Positions 26,113 through 42,841 of a stretch of DNA of 64,000 nucleotides are shown here, in pieces (the first letter of the stretch is position 1; each line of letters opens with the position of its first letter). Origin of the DNA: Bacillota bacterium (GTDB lineage Bacteria; Bacillota; Negativicutes; Sporomusales; CTSoil-080); assembly GCA_017889635.1 (NCBI GenBank), contig JAGGAC010000026.1:1-64000 (forward strand), written 5' to 3'. The position numbers and the translations under genes were made by a program. The notes beneath the pieces are model-generated. The model saw only the letters and a program-made list of their open reading frames with translations, ran no database searches and had not been told where the DNA came from.

Positions 26113-27216
26113 TCATTCGCCGCTTGAGACCATTTGCCGCTTGAAAATACAGATCGTACCGCCAGGATTGTAACACTTATTACAGAAAACGCATTTTGCG
26201 GGGTCCAATTCTCCACGCTGCCAGCGGTTAATAAGATCAGTTTCACGAATCAGCGAGCGGCTAAGCGCAATATATTCAATAGCGGTTTGATTAATAATCT
26301 CTGTCAGTTGATTAAATTCTCGGTTACCGCCCACCAAAATAACCGGAACCGTTAATTCTTGTGCCAATTCATCTGCATACGGTCTAAAATACGACTCTTG
26401 ACCCCGCCTTATTAATCTTGACGGTCCCTTGTTCATCCGTGATGAGCGACTGCCGCCGCTTACCTCAATAGCGCTTATTCCAAGTTCCGCTAAGGTTTTA
26501 CAAACATATTTGCATTCTTCAAAAGTCATACCTTGATCCATAAAATCTTCACAATTAATTTTAATCAGGATTGGATATTCCGGACCTACCTTTTCCCTGA
26601 CTGCCTTATATGTTTCCACAACCATTCTAGCCCTGTTTTCAATACTGCCGCCATAACAGTCTGTTCGCTGATTATAATAAGGATTTAGAAATTTGCTTAA
26701 CAAGTAGCCATGGGCGCTATGCAGCTGAACACCATCGAAACCAGCCTTTTTAGCCCGAAGTGCAGCATCAGCGAACGCAGTTTGTACAAACAAAATCTCC
26801 TCAGTTGTCATTTCTTGGGGAGTAGTATTGTAACCCGTATCAAGTACTTTGCTTGGCCCCCACATTACCTTGCCGCCGGCTAACTCAGGTGAAGCTTGGG
26901 AACCAAGACAGGCAAGCTGCATAATTATATTGCCGCCATAACTATGAACGACATCCACAAGCTTCTTATATTCGTCAATATAGGAATCATCATAAAGAGC
27001 CATTTGTCCCTGATAAAGCTGTTCTAACTTAGTTACAGCCGTAAGTCCGGTGATAATTGTCCCCACTCCTCCTCTCGCCAAATTTTCATAAACCTGAACT
27101 AACTCCTGAGTCATGCGCCCGTCTTCACCAGCTACGCCATCATAAGTAGCCGAGCGAAAAAATCTGTTTTTTAGCTTCATACCAGCAAATTGTGTTTGGT
27201 CAAATAACGATTTCAT
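26113..27216 (-). CDS. Old Yellow Enzyme-family NADH:flavin oxidoreductase
   Basis: A 367-residue FMN TIM-barrel ene-reductase. The active-site pair is intact as HSAH in VQLHSAHGYLLSKF. The family phrase YGGSIENRARMV is present, as is the C-terminal FMN-phosphate loop (VILVGGNRE). A Cys-rich tail (CVFCNKC plus a further Cys in GGTICIF) resembles the iron-sulphur ligand region of 2,4-dienoyl-CoA reductase-like enzymes, but the flavodoxin/NAD domain of those long enzymes is absent. It reduces activated C=C bonds in the cytoplasm. It is paired with a DJ-1 gene downstream. A close paralogue lies at 39687-40709. Confidence 0.9.
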   Translation of the reverse strand: MKSLFDQTQFAGMKLKNRFFRSATYDGVAGEDGRMTQELVQVYENLARGGVGTIITGLTAVTKLEQLYQGQMALYDDSYIDEYKKLVDVVHSYGGNIIMQLACLGSQASPELAGGKVMWGPSKVLDTGYNTTPQEMTTEEILFVQTAFADAALRAKKAGFDGVQLHSAHGYLLSKFLNPYYNQRTDCYGGSIENRARMVVETYKAVREKVGPEYPILIKINCEDFMDQGMTFEECKYVCKTLAELGISAIEVSGGSRSSRMNKGPSRLIRRGQESYFRPYADELAQELTVPVILVGGNREFNQLTEIINQTAIEYIALSRSLIRETDLINRWQRGELDPAKCVFCNKCYNPGGTICIFKRQMVSSGE

Positions 27217-34658: not shown

Positions 34659-37607
34659 TTACATCTTTCGAGTGTTTGTACTTACTGTTGACTTATCTTG
34701 ATCCAGTGAAACTTTGTACCAGGCAGCATACATTGTCGGAAGAACTAACAGGGTCAAGACTGTTGCTCCAAAAAGCCCGGCAGCAATTGCTACCGCCATA
34801 GGTCCCCAGAAAACGCTTGATACAAGGGGAATCATCCCCAGGATAGCCGCAGCAGCGGTCAGCATAATCGGCCGGAATCTAATAACAGCCGCGTTTATTA
34901 TTGCATCCCAAAGTGCTTCGCCGGCAGCAATCTGCTGTTCGATCTGGTCAATAAGAATAACTGAGTTCCTCATGATGATACCCATCAAAGCAAGTATGCC
35001 GAGTTGTACCACAAACCCCATGGGACTCCCGGTTAAGAGAAGCCCCAGGCTGACGCCAATAATGCCAAGCGGCGCAGTCAGCAAAGTCAGAATCATTTTC
35101 GGGATACTCTGTAGTTGGAACATAAGCAAGGTAAGAATAGCCAAAATCATCATCGGAATCGGCGCCATTAAAAAGGTTCCCGCCTTCTTACTCATCTCCA
35201 AAGGCCCGTCGATATCGATACTGTATCCTGCCGGCAGATTGTCACGTACTTCCTTAAGTTTGTCATAAACTTTCTGCGCAGCATCATTCCCCATCGTTCC
35301 CTGAGTTACATTAGCCTGAATCGTAATCGTCGGCTTCAAATTCCGGCGCCAAATTAAACCTTCTTCAGCATCATAGCTTATTTTAGCAATCTGACCGAGT
35401 GGAACATACTTACCATTGCCAATCGAAATATTTATATCTTTTATTTGATTTAAGTCTTTCTTGTTCTCATCGGCAAGACGAAAAACGATACTGACGGTTT
35501 TATCTTTTTCACGATACTCAGTTATCGGCGCTCCAGTTAAATAGGTCTGAAGACTCATCGCCAGACTCTGACTGTCAAGGCCAAGTGCCCTGGCCTTATC
35601 CTGATCGATATTTAGACGCATTACCTTGCTTTTCTCGTTCCAGTCGAAATTGATATCTTTAATTATCTCTTCCTTAGCCATAATATCCTCGACCTGTCCA
35701 GCAATTTCCCGAACCTTATCATGATCATGACCAGTAATTCTAAGTGCAACCGGGTATGGATTTGGCGGCCCCATTTGGATTACTGAAGTATTCGCGCGAA
35801 CATTAGGAAAGTCTTCAGCAAACAAAGCCTGGACCTTTTTCTCCAGTTCTTTACGGGCCGTAAAATCTTTGGCGACAATAACAACCTGGGCATAACTAGT
35901 ATCAGGAAGAGAAGGCGTTGCAGTCAACACAAAGCGGGGTGCGCTCTGGCCAACATAATAAGTGTAACTGACCATATTGGGATCATCGGCAATAAGCTGG
36001 GCAAACCTTTGTACTTCCTGTTCGGTTGCCGCTTGCGACGAGCCTTGCGGCAACCGCATGTCAACCATAAGTTCCGGACGAGTCGACGCTGGGAAAAATT
36101 CTTGTTTGACCAGTCCCAGGAGAGCCACTGAGCCGATAAAGCTGACGCCAGTTATCCCGAGCACTAATTTCCTGTGACTAAGACACCATACCAATACACT
36201 TTTAAACAATCGATAAAACTTTTTGTCATAAATATCTGCTTCCTGTCCATGCTCGCCTGCTGGTTTTACTTTTACCAATAGATAACCAATAAGCGGAGTA
36301 ACTGTGCCGGCAACGCCCCATGATATCAGCAAAGCGATTGTTACAACCGTAAAAATACTGCCCACAAACTCGGCGGCACTTCCGGGAGAAAATCCTACCG
36401 GGATAAAGCCGGCGCAGGTAACAAGTGCTCCGGTCAGACGAGGATAGGCCGTGGCGGTGTAAGCGAAGCAGGCGGCGTCAAACCTGGTCCACCCCTGTTC
36501 AAGTTTGACATTCATCGTTTCCACAACGATAATAGCATCATCCACCAACAGCCCAAGAGCAATGATGAGTGCGCCCAACGAAATCTTCTGGAGATCAATA
36601 CCGAATATATTCATTGCAATAAATACCCCGCAAATAACCAGGGGTATACAAAGCGCAACAACTATCCCAGATCTAACACCAAGACTTATGAAGCTAACGA
36701 TAAGAACAATAAGAATCGCTTCAGCCAAAGATTCAACAAATTCGTTAATCGACGCTTTAACGACCTTGGGCTGATTGGCCACCGTATTTAGCTCCATTCC
36801 CAGCGGTAAACTTTTCTTGACCTCGGTCACTGTTTTTTCGAGGTTTTCCCCCATCGAAAGTACGTTACCGCCCTTTTCCATTGAAACAGCCAATCCGATG
36901 GCCGGCTGACCATTATAAAACATTTTTGGTTCCGCCGGCTCAACATAACTACGTTCTACTTTTGCAATATCACCCAGCCGAAAAGACTTACCGCCAGCAC
37001 GAATAGGCAGACTTCGTAAAGCTTCGATATCTTCGAACATGCCGCTAACCCTTATGTATACATCATCAGATGTGGTCTCAAGCATGCCCGAAGGCGCCAT
37101 AGCATTCTGGGCCTGCACGGCACTCACAATTAGGCCTGGATCAATGCCTAACTGTGCCAGTTTGCTGCTTTCCATTTTAACATATATTTTTTCAGGCTGC
37201 ACTCCAACCAGGTCGACTTTTTTTACATTAGGCACACTGAGCAATGTTCGGCGGATTTTCTCAGCATTTTCCCGCATCTCTTCATAACTATAACCATCGC
37301 CAGTCATAGCATAAATAGTGCCAAACACGTCATCAAAACGGTCATTAAAGTACGGACCGACAACACCTTGGGGCAGCGTTCCTTTTATATCGTTAACCAT
37401 GTTACGTACTTCCAGCCAGGTAGGTCTAACCGAGGCTTCTGAAATTGTATCTTTGAGGTTAACATAGATAACCGCCTGCCCGGTACTGGAGAAACTTTTT
37501 ACATAGTCAATCCCGGGGGTATCCTGAAGCTTTCTTTCAATCTTATCGGTAACCTGTTCCTCCACCTGACGGGCGGTGGCGCCAGGCCAGGCAACACTTA
37601 CAACCAT
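34659..37607 (-). CDS. RND-family efflux pump, 5' end missing
   Basis: The 982-residue frame is an RND (AcrB/MexB-like) transporter with two periplasmic porter regions and about eleven visible membrane helices. The TM4 Asp pair for proton transfer is present (GLLVDDAIIVVE). In the same frame, upstream of the first Met, it reads LGGIFSYQKLGRLEDPDFTIRQ, which is conserved RND N-terminus. That reading meets a stop at 37710-37712 after 34 codons, without a start codon. The first helix is therefore out of reach of normal translation, although it is coded. The upstream adaptor frame runs through the same DNA. See findings. The pump is probably non-functional as read. Confidence 0.85.
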   Translation of the reverse strand: MVVSVAWPGATARQVEEQVTDKIERKLQDTPGIDYVKSFSSTGQAVIYVNLKDTISEASVRPTWLEVRNMVNDIKGTLPQGVVGPYFNDRFDDVFGTIYAMTGDGYSYEEMRENAEKIRRTLLSVPNVKKVDLVGVQPEKIYVKMESSKLAQLGIDPGLIVSAVQAQNAMAPSGMLETTSDDVYIRVSGMFEDIEALRSLPIRAGGKSFRLGDIAKVERSYVEPAEPKMFYNGQPAIGLAVSMEKGGNVLSMGENLEKTVTEVKKSLPLGMELNTVANQPKVVKASINEFVESLAEAILIVLIVSFISLGVRSGIVVALCIPLVICGVFIAMNIFGIDLQKISLGALIIALGLLVDDAIIVVETMNVKLEQGWTRFDAACFAYTATAYPRLTGALVTCAGFIPVGFSPGSAAEFVGSIFTVVTIALLISWGVAGTVTPLIGYLLVKVKPAGEHGQEADIYDKKFYRLFKSVLVWCLSHRKLVLGITGVSFIGSVALLGLVKQEFFPASTRPELMVDMRLPQGSSQAATEQEVQRFAQLIADDPNMVSYTYYVGQSAPRFVLTATPSLPDTSYAQVVIVAKDFTARKELEKKVQALFAEDFPNVRANTSVIQMGPPNPYPVALRITGHDHDKVREIAGQVEDIMAKEEIIKDINFDWNEKSKVMRLNIDQDKARALGLDSQSLAMSLQTYLTGAPITEYREKDKTVSIVFRLADENKKDLNQIKDINISIGNGKYVPLGQIAKISYDAEEGLIWRRNLKPTITIQANVTQGTMGNDAAQKVYDKLKEVRDNLPAGYSIDIDGPLEMSKKAGTFLMAPIPMMILAILTLLMFQLQSIPKMILTLLTAPLGIIGVSLGLLLTGSPMGFVVQLGILALMGIIMRNSVILIDQIEQQIAAGEALWDAIINAAVIRFRPIMLTAAAAILGMIPLVSSVFWGPMAVAIAAGLFGATVLTLLVLPTMYAAWYKVSLDQDKSTVSTNTRKM

Positions 37608-38736
37608 CTGCCTGATTGTAAAATCCGGGTCCTCCAGCCGTCCAAGCTTTTGATAGGAAAATATCCCGCCGAGAAATATAACCAGTATAAAGTAATATAT
37701 CAGTTGAATTTAAGCCTTCGAGTACCTGAACCTGATTGTTTCCATACTGTCCAAGTTTGACAGGCCGCAAATTGACTATGTCGCCGCTCACCACCCATAC
37801 ATTAGGCACATCATCAGTTTGGTAAATTGCTGATAACGGAATATATATCGCAGGCTTAGTACCAGATGCATCTACAGCAACCGTTGCTGTCATACCAAGT
37901 TTTAATTCTGGTGGCGAATTTAAAAGGCTAATCCTGGCCTTATAGGTTCGGGTTACTTTGTCGGCCACCGGAGCTATTTCCCGGACCTTACCGTCAACAA
38001 TTGTCCCCGGCAGCGCCCAAAAGGTAACTTTAATCTGCGAAGCTTTGCGCAATTCCTCCACTTTGTTTTCTGGAATGCTTATTTCTACTTCCTGTTCGCC
38101 GCTCTTAATCAGCGTAATAACCTTTTGTCCTACGCCAACTACCTGGCCAACCTCAACATCGATACCAGCAACCACACCGTCGCAATCGGCATAAAGTGAA
38201 CTGTAGTCTAATTGGTTTGATCCCTGAGCATACTGAGCTGAAGCCTGCCGTGCTGCGGCAACGGCAGCGTCATAAGCACTTTGCTGCTGTTCATATGCGG
38301 CTCGGCTAACAATTCCGTCATCATATAGCTGGCGGTAACGGCTAAGATTATTTTCCGCAAGCTTTAACTGGGACTGAGAAGAATAAACCTGTGCTGAACT
38401 AATATTAACATTTTGCTGAATATCCTTAGCATCAATCTGCATCAGAACATCTCCGGCATGAACAATACTCCCAAGCTCGACGTTGCGTTTAATGATTTTT
38501 CCGCCTACCTGAAAAGCCAACTGACTTTCATATCGGCCCCGTACCTCGCCGGAATATGTATTAGTTTGATTCATAGCGCCAACACCAATCGTACTGGTAC
38601 GAACCAACGGTACATCCACATCCACCGCCTTGGTCGATGAACTTGATCCGATAATCAGCCCTGCCGCTACACACAGTAATACCACCAGAGCTGCCAACCC
38701 ATAATACATTTTCTTTTTCTCGAGCCTTTTTTGCAA
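37543..38736 (-). CDS. RND periplasmic adaptor (membrane fusion protein), 3' end fused out of frame into the RND gene
   Basis: The first 342 residues are a normal HlyD/AcrA-type adaptor. They comprise an N-terminal membrane anchor, a lipoyl half (GRYESQLAFQVGGKI), a coiled-coil hairpin, a beta-barrel (LKLGMTATVAVDAS) and a membrane-proximal part ending QVQVLEGL. The last 55 codons encode nonsense that is the RND N-terminus read in another frame. The natural end of the adaptor, its stop and the RND start are missing, a loss of roughly 100-150 bases (estimate from family length). It links pump and outer-membrane channel. An operator-like palindrome lies 150 bases upstream. Confidence 0.87.
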   Translation of the reverse strand: MQKRLEKKKMYYGLAALVVLLCVAAGLIIGSSSSTKAVDVDVPLVRTSTIGVGAMNQTNTYSGEVRGRYESQLAFQVGGKIIKRNVELGSIVHAGDVLMQIDAKDIQQNVNISSAQVYSSQSQLKLAENNLSRYRQLYDDGIVSRAAYEQQQSAYDAAVAAARQASAQYAQGSNQLDYSSLYADCDGVVAGIDVEVGQVVGVGQKVITLIKSGEQEVEISIPENKVEELRKASQIKVTFWALPGTIVDGKVREIAPVADKVTRTYKARISLLNSPPELKLGMTATVAVDASGTKPAIYIPLSAIYQTDDVPNVWVVSGDIVNLRPVKLGQYGNNQVQVLEGLNSTDILLYTGYISRRDIFLSKAWTAGGPGFYNQADGCKCCLAWRHRPSGGGTGYR

Positions 38737-38889: not shown

Positions 38890-38911
38890 TTGACTGACTT
38901 CAGTCAGTCAA
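38890..38911. promoter_or_regulatory. TetR operator before the RND adaptor gene
   Basis: Perfect 9-base arms TTGACTGAC and GTCAGTCAA around TTCA. The left half is the same TGACTGACTTCA found in the tetR and lpxL promoters. The right half also reads TTGACT on the minus strand, so it may overlap the -35 of the adaptor-RND-tolC operon. The exact -10 is unclear. Confidence 0.75.
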
Positions 38912-38942
38912 TGGCATAAAAAAGCTAGCCTTTTTACCATGC

Positions 38943-39560
38943 TTACACGCTTAAAACTAGTTTTCCCTCGGTCATGCCCAATGCTTTCTCCAGAAGAGAT
39001 ACGGCAATATTGGCCCGGCACCTCATTTGCTCCGGCGAATATTTTTTACATACTGCTTCATGAAGACAACCAACTATTGCCATAATAAAATCCACAGTAT
39101 CACTAAGATAGGGAACTTTGAAATAGCCCTGCTCAATCCCTTCTTCAATAATCCTGAGCAAAATCGGTGTAAACGCCTTTGTCCCTTGCCGACGAACCTT
39201 ATCTAAAATGTGCAGGTGTTCATCATTAAATAAATACTCAAACAGCAAGCCTTCGTTGGTATGAATGCCTTCAAATGCTTTACTTATTACCCAGGAAATT
39301 TTTTCTGGAGGCTGCACCAATTCATTAGCACTCAGCACTTCAATCTCAGCAATAACCTTAGCCAGATACCGAACTACGATAGCTTCCAGAACCTCTTCCT
39401 TAGACTTGAAATAATAATAAAAGGTCCCCTGAGCAACACCGATTTCCTTTACAATATCGCTAATCGCGGTCTGGTGGTAACCCCGTTCGTTAAATAAGAA
39501 CTCGGCAGTATCTAATATTTCGGCGATTCTGGTTTGTGGATCTTTTGTTATCCTGCTCAT
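38943..39560 (-). CDS. TetR/AcrR-family repressor
   Basis: A 205-residue TetR repressor. The N-terminal HTH spans about residues 10-55 (TRIAEILDTAEFLFNERGYHQ and ISDIVKEIGVAQGTFYYYFKSKEEVL, in two helices). The ligand-binding all-alpha domain that follows has no recognisable ligand signature. It lies between its own promoter/operator and the RND operon. Copies of its putative operator control three promoters. The family usually responds to hydrophobic drugs, bile acids or fatty acids, which would fit efflux and lipid A modification (inference). Confidence 0.92.
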   Translation of the reverse strand: MSRITKDPQTRIAEILDTAEFLFNERGYHQTAISDIVKEIGVAQGTFYYYFKSKEEVLEAIVVRYLAKVIAEIEVLSANELVQPPEKISWVISKAFEGIHTNEGLLFEYLFNDEHLHILDKVRRQGTKAFTPILLRIIEEGIEQGYFKVPYLSDTVDFIMAIVGCLHEAVCKKYSPEQMRCRANIAVSLLEKALGMTEGKLVLSV

Positions 39561-39579
39561 ACTTTTTCACCTCAGTAAC

Positions 39580-39625
39580 TGACTGACTTCAATCATATTA
39601 TAGTTATATTGGTCATTGCTGTCAA
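39580..39625 (-). promoter_or_regulatory. tetR promoter with operator
   Basis: On the minus strand TTGACA (39625-39620), 17 bases, TATAAT (39602-39597), a perfect consensus. Immediately downstream is the operator half TGACTGAC with TTCAATCA at 39580-39595 on the plus strand. Binding would block the start region, giving autoregulation. Confidence 0.8.
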
Positions 39626-39631
39626 TATCAC

Positions 39632-39668
39632 CTCATGCACTTAGTTGTAGACTACCTAAGTGCATGAG
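39632..39668 (-). terminator. Hairpin at the end of the lpxL-lpxL-OYE operon
   Basis: Perfect 13-base arms CTCATGCACTTAG and complement at 39632-39644 and 39656-39668, 19 bases after the OYE stop. No clear U-tract follows on the minus strand, so it may be a weak terminator or a processing site. It lies just upstream of the tetR promoter. Confidence 0.5.
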
Positions 39669-39686
39669 TGGTAAGATTTCAGTCCG

Positions 39687-40709
39687 TTAACATTGACTTG
39701 TATTTAAAATGCAGAAAAATGCCCCATCAAAATTTAAGCAAGCATTACATGAACTGCATTTAGCTTTATTTCTATTTCCTTGTTCCCAGCGTTGAATAAG
39801 ATCAGGCTCAGCAATCAATGGCCGGGCTAATGAAAAATACTCAATTGACGTCTTAGTCAGCGTTTCAGTCATCGCCGCAAACTCCCGATTGCCGCCAGCT
39901 AATATAATAGGAACTTTGTTGTGCGCGGCAATTTCGGCAACATGCTCCTTAAACCAATTATCTTTAATTGATTGCGGATACCAGTCACAGCTAATTTCAA
40001 TCGCGTCTATTCCTAATTGAGACAATTTACCACATAAATATGAGCAATCTTGAAAAGTAATTCCTCGTCTCGCATCTTCCATACAACTCAGCTTTATAAG
40101 AACAGGATATTCATAACCAACCTTTTTCCGCACAGTATTATAGGTTTCGAAAATCATCTTTGCTCGATTTTCAATACTGCCGCCATATTCATCATTCCGA
40201 CGATTATAATATGGCGATACAAACTGACCTAACAAACAACTGTGTGTCCCCTGTAATTCTATACCATCAAATCCCGCCTCTTTAGCCCGCTGCGCGGCAT
40301 CTCCAAATGCCTTTTGCATAAGTTGAATGTCTTCTTGGGTCATTTCCTTGGGTTTAATCTTAGTCCTCACATTTTGCACCGCACTTGGTCCCCAAATTAC
40401 ATGCTCGTCTTTAAACATGAATGAACCTCGATACCCAATTTGAAGCACAATTTTAGTATCATATTCGTGCACCATACTCGTAATCTTTTTATATTGGCTT
40501 AAAAAAGATTCCTCATAAACTTCCAATCCTAGAACATCTGTAAAACCAGTAATAATAGTACCAACGCCACCGCGGGCCAAATTTTGATAAACCATAAACA
40601 TCTCGTCAACAAGGTCTTTACTGCCACGGTTTTCAAAAGTCGCCGCTCGAAAAAGGCGGTTTTTTAGGCAAATGCTTCCCAGTCTTGTTTTATCAAATAA
40701 AGCTTTCAT
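39687..40709 (-). CDS. Old Yellow Enzyme-family oxidoreductase with altered active-site motif
   Basis: A 340-residue paralogue of the protein at 26113-27216, with the same TIM-barrel landmarks (YGGSIENRAKMI, PIILAGGNRE) and a Cys-rich tail (CSSCNACLNFDGAFFC). The usual HxxH substrate pair reads QGTH (ELQGTHSCLLGQF), so the first His is replaced by Gln. The C-terminal flavodoxin/NAD domain of long family members is absent. It lies 44 bases after the second lpxL gene with no promoter in between, so it is in that operon. The altered site may change substrate choice or reduce activity. Confidence 0.86.
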   Translation of the reverse strand: MKALFDKTRLGSICLKNRLFRAATFENRGSKDLVDEMFMVYQNLARGGVGTIITGFTDVLGLEVYEESFLSQYKKITSMVHEYDTKIVLQIGYRGSFMFKDEHVIWGPSAVQNVRTKIKPKEMTQEDIQLMQKAFGDAAQRAKEAGFDGIELQGTHSCLLGQFVSPYYNRRNDEYGGSIENRAKMIFETYNTVRKKVGYEYPVLIKLSCMEDARRGITFQDCSYLCGKLSQLGIDAIEISCDWYPQSIKDNWFKEHVAEIAAHNKVPIILAGGNREFAAMTETLTKTSIEYFSLARPLIAEPDLIQRWEQGNRNKAKCSSCNACLNFDGAFFCILNTSQC

Positions 40710-40753
40710 TTTATTAGCCCCTTCATTCTATCTTCACGCCGACAAATTAACTA

Positions 40754-41620
40754 TTAAACAATCTGTGTATGCTTCCAACGATTATGCAGCCAAAACCATT
40801 CATTGGGAAATTGGCGAATATGATTTTCAATAATAGTTGTAAGCTGTTGGGTAATAGTAAATACATCCGCATCGCGATTAGCCGTTTTTTCCACAAATAT
40901 CGGCTTACTCAAGACAGCTGTATGACCGCCATCTTCTTTTCTAGTAATAAAAGCCGGTACAATCGGCGTACCTTTCATCCTTGCCATTGCTGCCGCCCCT
41001 GTCGCCGTAGAAGCCGGAACTCCGAAAAATTTAACAAATGTCCCTTCATTACCAGCATCCTGATCCATTAATAACCCAAGTATCTTTCCTTCTCCCAACA
41101 ACCGAATCATCTCACGGATCTCATTTTTGTAAACCACATGCATCCCTGACAACATGCGATATTCATTAATAAACCGATTCATTGCTGTATTCGTCTGCTT
41201 TTGAGCTACCCCGACCACTGGAAAACCATTAAGAGACAGTGCCGGTCCCAATAATTCCCAATTACCACTATGAGCTGTTGCAATTACAACTCCCTTGCCA
41301 TAAGCCAAGGCCTCATGTAAATACTCCCGCCCCTTAATTGTAACCAACTGATTAATATTGCTTTTGTTTAAAAGCGGAAACCGTAGTACTTCTATCAGCA
41401 TATTCCCAAAACGTGTAGTACTGCTTTTCACAATATCGCTTGCAAGTTCTCTATCCACACCAAAACTGCGCATAATATTTCCAACAGCTAATTTCTTGCG
41501 CCTTTTCGGTACGAGAAGCCAACCAAGGCTACCGATCGCTTTCCCGCTATAATACCTTGCTTTTAGCGGTAATATACAAAAAAACCGGCTAATTAGTTTC
41601 ATTATGTAATAGACTACCAT
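40754..41620 (-). CDS. LpxL/HtrB-type acyltransferase 2
   Basis: A 288-residue lipid A late acyltransferase of the LpxL/LpxM family. It is an inner-membrane protein with an N-terminal hydrophobic helix (IMKLISRFFCILPL). The catalytic HxxxxE motif is intact in ATAHSGNWELLG, and other family residues are seen in LGLLMDQDAG and PNEWFWLHNRWK. It adds a secondary acyl chain to lipid A. The ATG at 41620 is chosen because AAGGA lies 8 bases upstream; the open frame begins 6 bases earlier with TTG. It follows the paralogous gene by 48 bases. Confidence 0.92.
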   Translation of the reverse strand: MVVYYIMKLISRFFCILPLKARYYSGKAIGSLGWLLVPKRRKKLAVGNIMRSFGVDRELASDIVKSSTTRFGNMLIEVLRFPLLNKSNINQLVTIKGREYLHEALAYGKGVVIATAHSGNWELLGPALSLNGFPVVGVAQKQTNTAMNRFINEYRMLSGMHVVYKNEIREMIRLLGEGKILGLLMDQDAGNEGTFVKFFGVPASTATGAAAMARMKGTPIVPAFITRKEDGGHTAVLSKPIFVEKTANRDADVFTITQQLTTIIENHIRQFPNEWFWLHNRWKHTQIV

Positions 41621-41668
41621 TCGCAACTTCCTTTACCATCGAATTCAAACAGTCTTGCCGAAAAACAA

Positions 41669-42565
41669 CTAGGCCTGACTTTCCATATATGGCGTATTCC
41701 AACGTTTTTGAAACCACAGCCAATCTTCCGGATGTTCCATAATGGCCGCTTCAACAATCTTTGTCATTCGCGCTGTATTCTCATAAAGCGCTTGCTTCGG
41801 ATCGTCATGACGCTCATAGCTAAATGGACGTTCGATAACGATACGGTAACCGCCTTTAGAACGGTGAAAAATAAAACCCGGTACAATAATCGAATCAAAT
41901 TTTTCGGAAAAAACCGCCGGACCGACAGGTGTAGACGCCTTTTTTCCTAAAAAGTCTATAAATACCCCATCTTTTCCCCCGTCTTGGTCAGCCAAAAACC
42001 CTAATACTTTACCTTTTTTTAAAGCTCTGGCTGCTTTAATCATTTCAGTTGTTCCGCGGCTAAAAACTTCCACTCCCATCCTTTCGCGATATTCATTTAA
42101 AAACCGACTATACTGAGCATTTGGCTGTTGTTTAACAATAGTTGTTATTGGAAAACCAGCTAAGGCCAAGCCGGCTGCTAGCCATTCCCAATTGCCAATA
42201 TGTGCGGTAAGGAAAACTACCCCTTTTCCGGATGCTACAGCCTGTTTAAGATTATCCAAACCATCAATTGAAATATATTTCTTGATTTTTTGTGGAGTCA
42301 ACCTTGGCGTATACATGACTTCGACTAACATTTGGCCTAAATTATAAAACAACCGCCGAATAACCTTTTCCGCATCCTCATATGATATTTTCAAGCCGCG
42401 CATAGCTTGGTCAATTCCGCGCTTTCGCTGGCGCGCCGCCACTAAATAATATATATACCCTAAGCTGCGTCCAAATTTAACCACTAAAGAATACGGCAAT
42501 AAACAAATAATAAAACTAAATCCCTTTAATAAACGATACTGTAAATTATTAAACATTCTACTCAC
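41669..42565 (-). CDS. LpxL/HtrB-type acyltransferase 1
   Basis: A 298-residue LpxL-family protein with a hydrophobic N-terminal anchor, the HxxxxE motif in LTAHIGNWEWLA, a downstream GFLADQDGG and the C-terminal EDWLWFQKRWNT. The two tandem copies are about as different from each other as separate LpxL/LpxM enzymes. They may therefore add different acyl chains or act at different positions (inference). It is the first gene of the operon; the start is 8 bases after a 34-base perfect palindrome. The promoter/operator module is at 42646-42691. Confidence 0.92.
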   Translation of the reverse strand: MSRMFNNLQYRLLKGFSFIICLLPYSLVVKFGRSLGYIYYLVAARQRKRGIDQAMRGLKISYEDAEKVIRRLFYNLGQMLVEVMYTPRLTPQKIKKYISIDGLDNLKQAVASGKGVVFLTAHIGNWEWLAAGLALAGFPITTIVKQQPNAQYSRFLNEYRERMGVEVFSRGTTEMIKAARALKKGKVLGFLADQDGGKDGVFIDFLGKKASTPVGPAVFSEKFDSIIVPGFIFHRSKGGYRIVIERPFSYERHDDPKQALYENTARMTKIVEAAIMEHPEDWLWFQKRWNTPYMESQA

Positions 42566-42572
42566 CCCTACA

Positions 42573-42606
42573 CCGATTATTGACTGACGCGTCAGTCAAT
42601 AATCGG
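42573..42606. promoter_or_regulatory. 34-base perfect palindrome before lpxL
   Basis: Perfect 17-base arms centred at 42589/42590. The core is TGACTGACG followed by its complement, flanked by CCGATTAT and its complement. It lies in the 5' untranslated region just before the lpxL start, so it can act as a TetR operator in DNA or as a hairpin in RNA that hides the ribosome site. Confidence 0.8.
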
Positions 42607-42645
42607 AAATACAATTTTATCGCAGCTCTAAGATCTCTCGACCGC

Positions 42646-42691
42646 TGACTGACTTCAATCATATTGTAGTTTTTTTGGTCAATATTGTCAA
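42646..42691 (-). promoter_or_regulatory. lpxL operon promoter with TetR operator
   Basis: On the minus strand TTGACA (42691-42686), 17 bases, TACAAT (42668-42663), then TGACTGAC/TTCAATCA at 42646-42661 on the plus strand. The arrangement, spacing and most bases are those of the tetR promoter at 39580-39625. Confidence 0.8.
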
Positions 42692-42702
42692 TAATTCATA
42701 GA

Positions 42703-42744
42703 CGAAAAAAGGCATAGACATATTCCTATCTATACCTTTTTTCG
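42703..42744 (-). terminator. Terminator between the zinc-ribbon gene and the lpxL promoter
   Basis: Arms of 16 bases (with one mismatch), CGAAAAAAGG and CCTTTTTTCG outermost, at 42703-42718 and 42729-42744. A/T-rich ends suit termination in either direction. It separates the zinc-ribbon gene from the lpxL promoter. Confidence 0.75.
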
Positions 42745-42841
42745 ATGTATGCTTGCCACAAAACTATTTTTTCATTTCCAAGACCATTTTCCCCCACTGT
42801 TGAATACAGTACTATAACTTATTAAACCATTAATTTAAAAC

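Follow-up and report, generated by a model that had tools for sequence, protein, structure and literature searches.

A TetR-family repressor predicted to control its own gene, an RND pump operon and an operon of two lipid A acyltransferases and an ene-reductase in a diderm Firmicute

The repressors AcrR, TtgR, SmeT and MtrR are encoded by tetR genes that adjoin those of the adaptor and permease of a resistance-nodulation-division (RND) pump, with operators at both; to our knowledge, none has been described with an operon of two lpxL genes and an Old Yellow Enzyme (OYE) gene. Another TetR repressor, NemR of Escherichia coli, is paired with the OYE reductase NemA. Joint control of efflux and LpxL also has precedents. 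In Klebsiella pneumoniae, the TetR protein RamR represses the gene for RamA, itself a direct activator of acrA and lpxL-2, such that a ligand-responsive TetR ends up controlling both the RND pump acrAB and lpxL-2, with measured changes in lipid A (PMC4310594); the efflux regulator MarA, an AraC-type activator with a chromosomal regulon, activates lpxL and lpxC in E. coli (PMC12052159). Here we describe a locus in an anaerobic two-membraned Firmicute (Bacillota bacterium; GTDB lineage Bacteria; Bacillota; Negativicutes; Sporomusales; CTSoil-080), in which a TetR-family protein probably represses its own gene and two operons through four predicted operators, such that one inducer would turn on a pump, an OYE-type reductase and a second pair of lipid A acyltransferases. 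The window analysed comprises positions 1 to 64,000 of the forward strand of contig JAGGAC010000026.1 (assembly GCA_017889635.1), part of a 4.5 Mb genome. Whereas RamR acts indirectly, via the AraC-type RamA, on scattered genes, and MarA has no TetR operator at lpxL, the candidate operators here are situated on the promoters of the target genes themselves, within one cluster. An earlier reading of this DNA, the original prediction, held that no such unit had been described; this was too strong, as RamR-RamA and MarA already join efflux and lpxL, yet, as far as we have searched, there is no precedent for a TetR operator placed directly on an lpxL-lpxL-OYE operon. No case of a TetR protein directly controlling lpxL or pagL was found in the literature, the search for pagL being weak since 'tetr' also matches 'tetra-acylated'.

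The minus strand carries the genes for a TolC-type outer membrane factor, the RND permease and adaptor, the TetR, the OYE-type reductase and both acyltransferases, all identities that had been proposed originally and are borne out by matches to Pfam and NCBIfam profiles. The promoters of tetR and of lpxL-lpxL-OYE are the two best sigma-70-like sites in 4.9 kb. They had been said to share one layout (39580-39625 and 42646-42691), and an ungapped alignment confirms this, with 43/49 bases identical and a score of 37, compared with a maximum of 17 for shuffled pairs (n=500). Each has TGATTGAAGTCAGTCA, which is the originally highlighted TGACTGACTTCAATCA in reverse complement, starting one base past the -10. 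Exact copies of the word TGACTGACTTCA are present at 38891, 39580 and 42646 and nowhere else in the window, and the related palindrome previously reported before the adaptor gene, here operator A, does have the same arms. To these can be added operator D, overlooked until now, which sits around 17 bp upstream of the lpxL ATG and has TGACTGA-N4-TCAGTCA as its core. All four sites fall inside 3.8 kb, and they account for four of the five places in the whole genome at which TGACTGA-N0-8-TCARTCA is found. It thus appears very probable that the TetR represses itself, the pump operon and lpxL-lpxL-OYE, and the operator set can be regarded as real and well-supported.

Attempts to extend the regulon within the genome were unsuccessful. 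The fifth match (C36:18182; here and below, C denotes contigs, G related genomes and L loci) was rejected as a member, being a hairpin followed by a T-run and hence a terminator. Distant members were likewise rejected: allowing up to three mismatches to the 16-mer gave 86 matches against 61 for the reversed control, which is near background, and most of those with two mismatches lie across or right beside the end of an open reading frame.

A search for the operator in related genomes, proposed with the original prediction, was made blind with the 22-mer TAYAATNTGAYTGAAGTCAGTC, which combines -10 and operator, in 381 genomes of the class. It returned six exact matches, with zero for reversed control patterns. 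Five of the six are immediately before tetR genes of one subfamily (G000, G002, G018, G193 and G320), those of G193 and G320 having first come to light through this search, and the remaining one belongs to the window's lpxL promoter; two further matches with one mismatch are not located at tetR. The window TetR is 62-63% identical to that of G002, the nearest relative, 53% to that of G018 and around 50% to those of G193 and G320. The tetR promoter of G002 has the same -10 and operator, and a related palindrome, GACTGACTTAAATCAGTC, precedes its adaptor gene; in G048, TTGACTTAAGTCAGTC is found at tetR, whilst ACTGACTAAAGTCAGT lies downstream of the gene, towards the adaptor. The G018 tetR promoter reads TTGACA-18-TATAATTTGACTGAAGTCAGTCA, and in G193 the sequence downstream of tetR, TGACTGACTTAAATCAGTCA (L334, G193:C19:150009), contains the whole core of the G002 adaptor operator, the adaptor-permease pair lying around 5 kb beyond.

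More widely, the gene order tetR-adaptor-permease recurs at around 20 loci among the relatives, and the succession of -35, -10 and abutting palindrome is mostly kept across around 30 related tetR loci, although the type of palindrome varies. From one species to another, the core of the palindrome varies in step with the tetR operator (TTGACTGA, TTGAAC and TTGACC types), and the TGACT/AGTCA type of operator accompanies the TetR N-terminus R-[IV]-[TS]-K-D-P. The operators at tetR and the adaptor are hence conserved (G002, G048 and the 381-genome search), and the comparison provides good evidence that the TetR binds these predicted sites. Read from the sequences, the genes, promoters and operators, and their conservation at tetR and the pump, are evident, and with them the marks of a local TetR-type RND repressor: a TetR helix-turn-helix domain, conserved adjacent adaptor and permease genes and palindromic operators.

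Table 1. Coordinates of genes, promoters, predicted operators and a hairpin at the locus, numbered from the first base of the window.
Feature	Position	Strand	Evidence or remarks
TolC-type outer membrane factor, 431 aa	33298..34593	-	Pfam OEP 190 bits; gene order as in relative G002
RND permease	34659..37709	-	Pfam ACR_tran; 80% to G002 permease from residue 14
RND adaptor (membrane fusion protein, MFP)	37543..38736	-	NCBIfam RND_mfp 233 bits vs cut-off 94.9
Operator A, TTGACTGACTTCAGTCAGTCAA, 10-bp perfect arms, before adaptor	38890..38911	.	Related palindromes in G002 and G048
TetR-family repressor, 205 aa, N-terminus MSRITKDP	38943..39560	-	Pfam TetR_N 67.6 bits vs cut-off 24
Operator B, TGACTGACTTCAATCA on +, directly downstream of tetR -10	39580..39595	.	
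tetR promoter, TTGACA-17-TATAAT	39597..39625	-	12/12 consensus; -35 39625-39620, -10 39602-39597
OYE-type reductase, 340 aa, C-terminal Cys cluster	39687..40709	-	Pfam Oxidored_FMN 174.7 bits
LpxL-type acyltransferase b (LpxLb), 290 aa from TTG, motif HSGNWE	40754..41626	-	Pfam Lip_A_acyltrans 178 bits
LpxL-type acyltransferase a (LpxLa), 295 aa from ATG, motif HIGNWE	41669..42556	-	Pfam Lip_A_acyltrans 165 bits
Operator D, 34-bp perfect palindrome in lpxL leader, core TTGACTGACGCGTCAGTCAA at 42580-42599	42573..42606	.	
Operator C, TGACTGACTTCAATCA on +, directly downstream of lpxL -10	42646..42661	.	
lpxL-lpxL-OYE promoter, TTGACA-17-TACAAT	42663..42691	-	11/12 consensus; -35 42691-42686, -10 42668-42663
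Strong hairpin between A and T runs	42698..42748	.	-24 kcal/mol, z -8.3

In the arrangement that we propose, a dimer of the TetR would bind TGAYTGA/TCARTCA palindromes and repress its own gene. The tetR and lpxL-lpxL-OYE promoters each have an operator directly next to the -10, where the bound protein would block RNA polymerase; operator D would tighten repression from within the lpxL leader, and operator A would control the pump operon. Once the TetR had bound its inducer, for which a lipophilic or fatty-acyl compound is the likeliest candidate, all three units would be expressed. The cell would then make the RND-TolC pump, the OYE-type reductase and two late lipid A acyltransferases; this second pair, added to three copies elsewhere in the genome, would alter lipid A acylation. 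The lpxL promoter itself looks as though it was copied from that of tetR within the lineage of the window. We infer binding, repression, the inducer and the lipid A change, and the wider account in which one signal acts on membrane, detoxification and pump together is only partly supported. The strong hairpin upstream of the lpxL promoter is probably a bidirectional terminator that sets the operon apart from the upstream gene. A second hairpin, between OYE and tetR, is without a T-run, and some read-through into tetR is therefore possible. Little is known of how diderm Firmicutes regulate the structure of their lipid A; if the proposal is correct, late lipid A acylation is tied to efflux and ene-reduction by one local repressor, without two-component or AraC-type regulators of the enterobacterial kind.

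Several observations weigh against such a regulon. Operators B and C are imperfect palindromes (TGACTGA-CT-TCAATCA), the spacing of the arms varies among sites (2 or 4 bases) and operator D might instead work as a hairpin in the RNA. The fold of the TetR is matched about equally well by the multidrug repressor SmeT, such that the class of ligand can be named only tentatively. In none of 101 relative genomes does lpxL-lpxL-OYE lie beside tetR, the link being found only in the window genome, nor was the operator found before orthologues of the first lpxL (57-73% identity) in five other genomes. The original prediction had stated that a lack of conservation of the operator before lpxL in relatives would count against it and, in the sense of conservation, this is what was found. 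Around 115 bp are also absent from the adaptor-permease junction by comparison with G002 (window 37543-37730). Reading the junction in three frames reveals that the C-terminus of the adaptor is replaced by out-of-frame permease sequence, whilst the permease is left without a start codon and its first 13 or so residues, with homology beginning at residue 14 of the G002 protein and the next ATG at 37607. The deletion means that the intact pump genes to be expected of a local TetR/RND unit are not present; it is either a broken pump in the window genome or an assembly error. This genome may lack a working efflux arm and, because the junction is deleted or misassembled, co-induction of efflux is the weakest part of the claim. 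The earlier proposal of efflux under TetR control hence stands as regards the conserved operator before the adaptor, but the pump itself may not work.

The absence of the lpxL link elsewhere bears most directly on the alternative that best survives, namely that an ordinary local repressor controls tetR and the RND pump, and that lpxL-lpxL-OYE merely acquired a copy of the promoter and operator by a recent local duplication, its regulation having no selected function. The pairing of tetR and pump, with operators, is ancestral and widespread, whereas that with lpxL is known from one genome only; furthermore, the likeness between the lpxL and tetR promoters of the window extends to the spacer, which is not so for the promoter of G002, and suggests recent copying. 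However, a copied tetR promoter does not explain operator D, an additional, independent and perfect site in the lpxL leader; the spacer has diverged whilst, from the -10 to the end of the operator, the two promoters differ at a single base, in the -10; and related TetRs adjoin lipid A genes at two other loci. We therefore consider a copy without function unlikely. The original idea of one repressor for all three units is retained in part: tetR, adaptor and lpxL share the operator, but the lpxL link comes from a single genome.

As regards the signal, among named family models Bacillus FadR gives the best score for the window TetR and for five relatives, in every case well short of its cut-off (66.7 bits for the window protein against NCBIfam NF053878, the FadR equivalog, with a cut-off of 200). 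The closest solved structures by sequence are those of B. subtilis FadR (YsiA; 1vi0 and 3whb), and FadR entries rank 4-13 by fold among other TetRs when compared with an AlphaFold model of the protein (pLDDT 87.7). FadR differs in regulating fatty-acid degradation genes; its operator, of the form TGAATGA-N4-TCATTCA, resembles that at site D. An acyl-CoA or fatty acid is thus a plausible signal, and would make sense of lipid A acyltransferases in the regulon; a lipophilic toxin in this role is a guess, and a fatty acid or acyl-CoA is at least an equally good candidate. The inducer might otherwise be a reactive electrophile or toxic enone, the locus being a detoxification switch like NemR-NemA with a pump and membrane hardening attached. 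The OYE gene in the operon, the known pairing of a TetR with an OYE and several cysteines near the C-terminus of the window TetR would all suit this, but the nearest TetRs share few of these cysteines, and cysteine sensing is not indicated; the closest matches of the repressor are to FadR rather than NemR; and NemR-NemA lacks lipid A genes and employs an OYE of another subfamily. The window OYE scores 103.9 bits against the NemA (N-ethylmaleimide reductase) cut-off of 403, and is closer to FadH/BaiCD-type enzymes. An electrophile switch is a shade more doubtful than the functionless copy. Least probable of all, and improbable in itself, is that the palindromes before lpxL and the adaptor are RNA hairpins for leader stability or termination rather than TetR operators: the lpxL leader (z -3.5), where the 34-bp palindrome would make a long stem, and the tetR-adaptor interval (z -3.8) both fold well, and long palindromes recur downstream of related tetR genes, but no T-run comes after A or D on the transcribed strand, their arms equal the operator abutting the tetR -10, and the core varies together with the tetR operator between species.

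In this TetR family, the second operator, which lies downstream of tetR and ahead of the target gene, frequently forms the middle of a far longer perfect palindrome, with arms of 10-21 bp (window 42573-42606; L129, L152, L156 and others). Another type of target may exist in G018, where an exact TGACTGACTTCAGTCA at L227:9204 (G018:C14:219203) is around 125 bp upstream of a run of UDP-glucose dehydrogenase and glycosyltransferase genes; this is a possible surface-polysaccharide target of the G018 TetR. As a target shared with the window the site was rejected, given its position ahead of polysaccharide genes and one mismatch in the -10.

Related repressors are also found beside other lipid A genes. 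A paralogue in the same genome (37% identity) adjoins pagL, of the lipid A 3-O-deacylase family (C41:25403-26828; L156:8901-10344); TATAATTTGAACAGTTCAAATTATA is located at this tetR and TGATTATTATTTGAACCATTCAAATAATAATCA before pagL, where there is a palindrome of 33 bp; that at the tetR -10 is perfect. At G003:C32 (L220:8443-10682), a gene for a TetR with 41% identity is followed by pagL and an lpxL of the LpxLa clade, with TTGAACCGGTCAA repeats before pagL. Three neighbourhoods of this kind among around 30 loci compare with about 0.1 expected at random, by a rough, after-the-fact estimate. It is conceivable, and we advance it only tentatively, that a FadR-like TetR subfamily of diderm Firmicutes has repeatedly been wired to the remodelling of lipid A acyl chains (lpxL-lpxL-OYE, pagL at C41, and pagL-lpxL in G003), each time with its own operator at tetR and the lipid A genes, such that fatty-acyl signals would swap in inducible second late acyltransferases or a deacylase. 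The recurrence beside pagL and lpxL offers a testable idea of the signal, and a simple handle on inducible change of the outer membrane in this lineage. PagL was rejected as a general partner of the TetR family, as only 2 of around 35 pagL genes adjoin such a tetR.

Both acyltransferases of the operon keep the HX4E motif and far exceed the Lip_A_acyltrans cut-off of 22.3 bits, and both fall below those of named families (PRK08419, 153-169 vs 248 bits; TIGR02207, 122-134 vs 297.8). LpxLa belongs to an accessory clade (100/100 support) that is sister to one core type of lipid A acyltransferase, whilst LpxLb groups with the other core type, type 1 (100/100 support); the operon therefore holds one enzyme of each type. 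Two of the three further LpxL copies in the genome are on contig C70 and one is on C1.

The cysteine cluster at the C-terminus of the OYE-type reductase, CSSCNACLNFDGAFFC, may bind an Fe-S cluster as in the FadH/BaiCD-type reductases. A second OYE-family gene in the window (26143-27216) is 49% identical to that of the operon and, in G018:C14 (L279:9544-11505), pagL is directly downstream of an OYE gene with around 50% identity to the same reductase.

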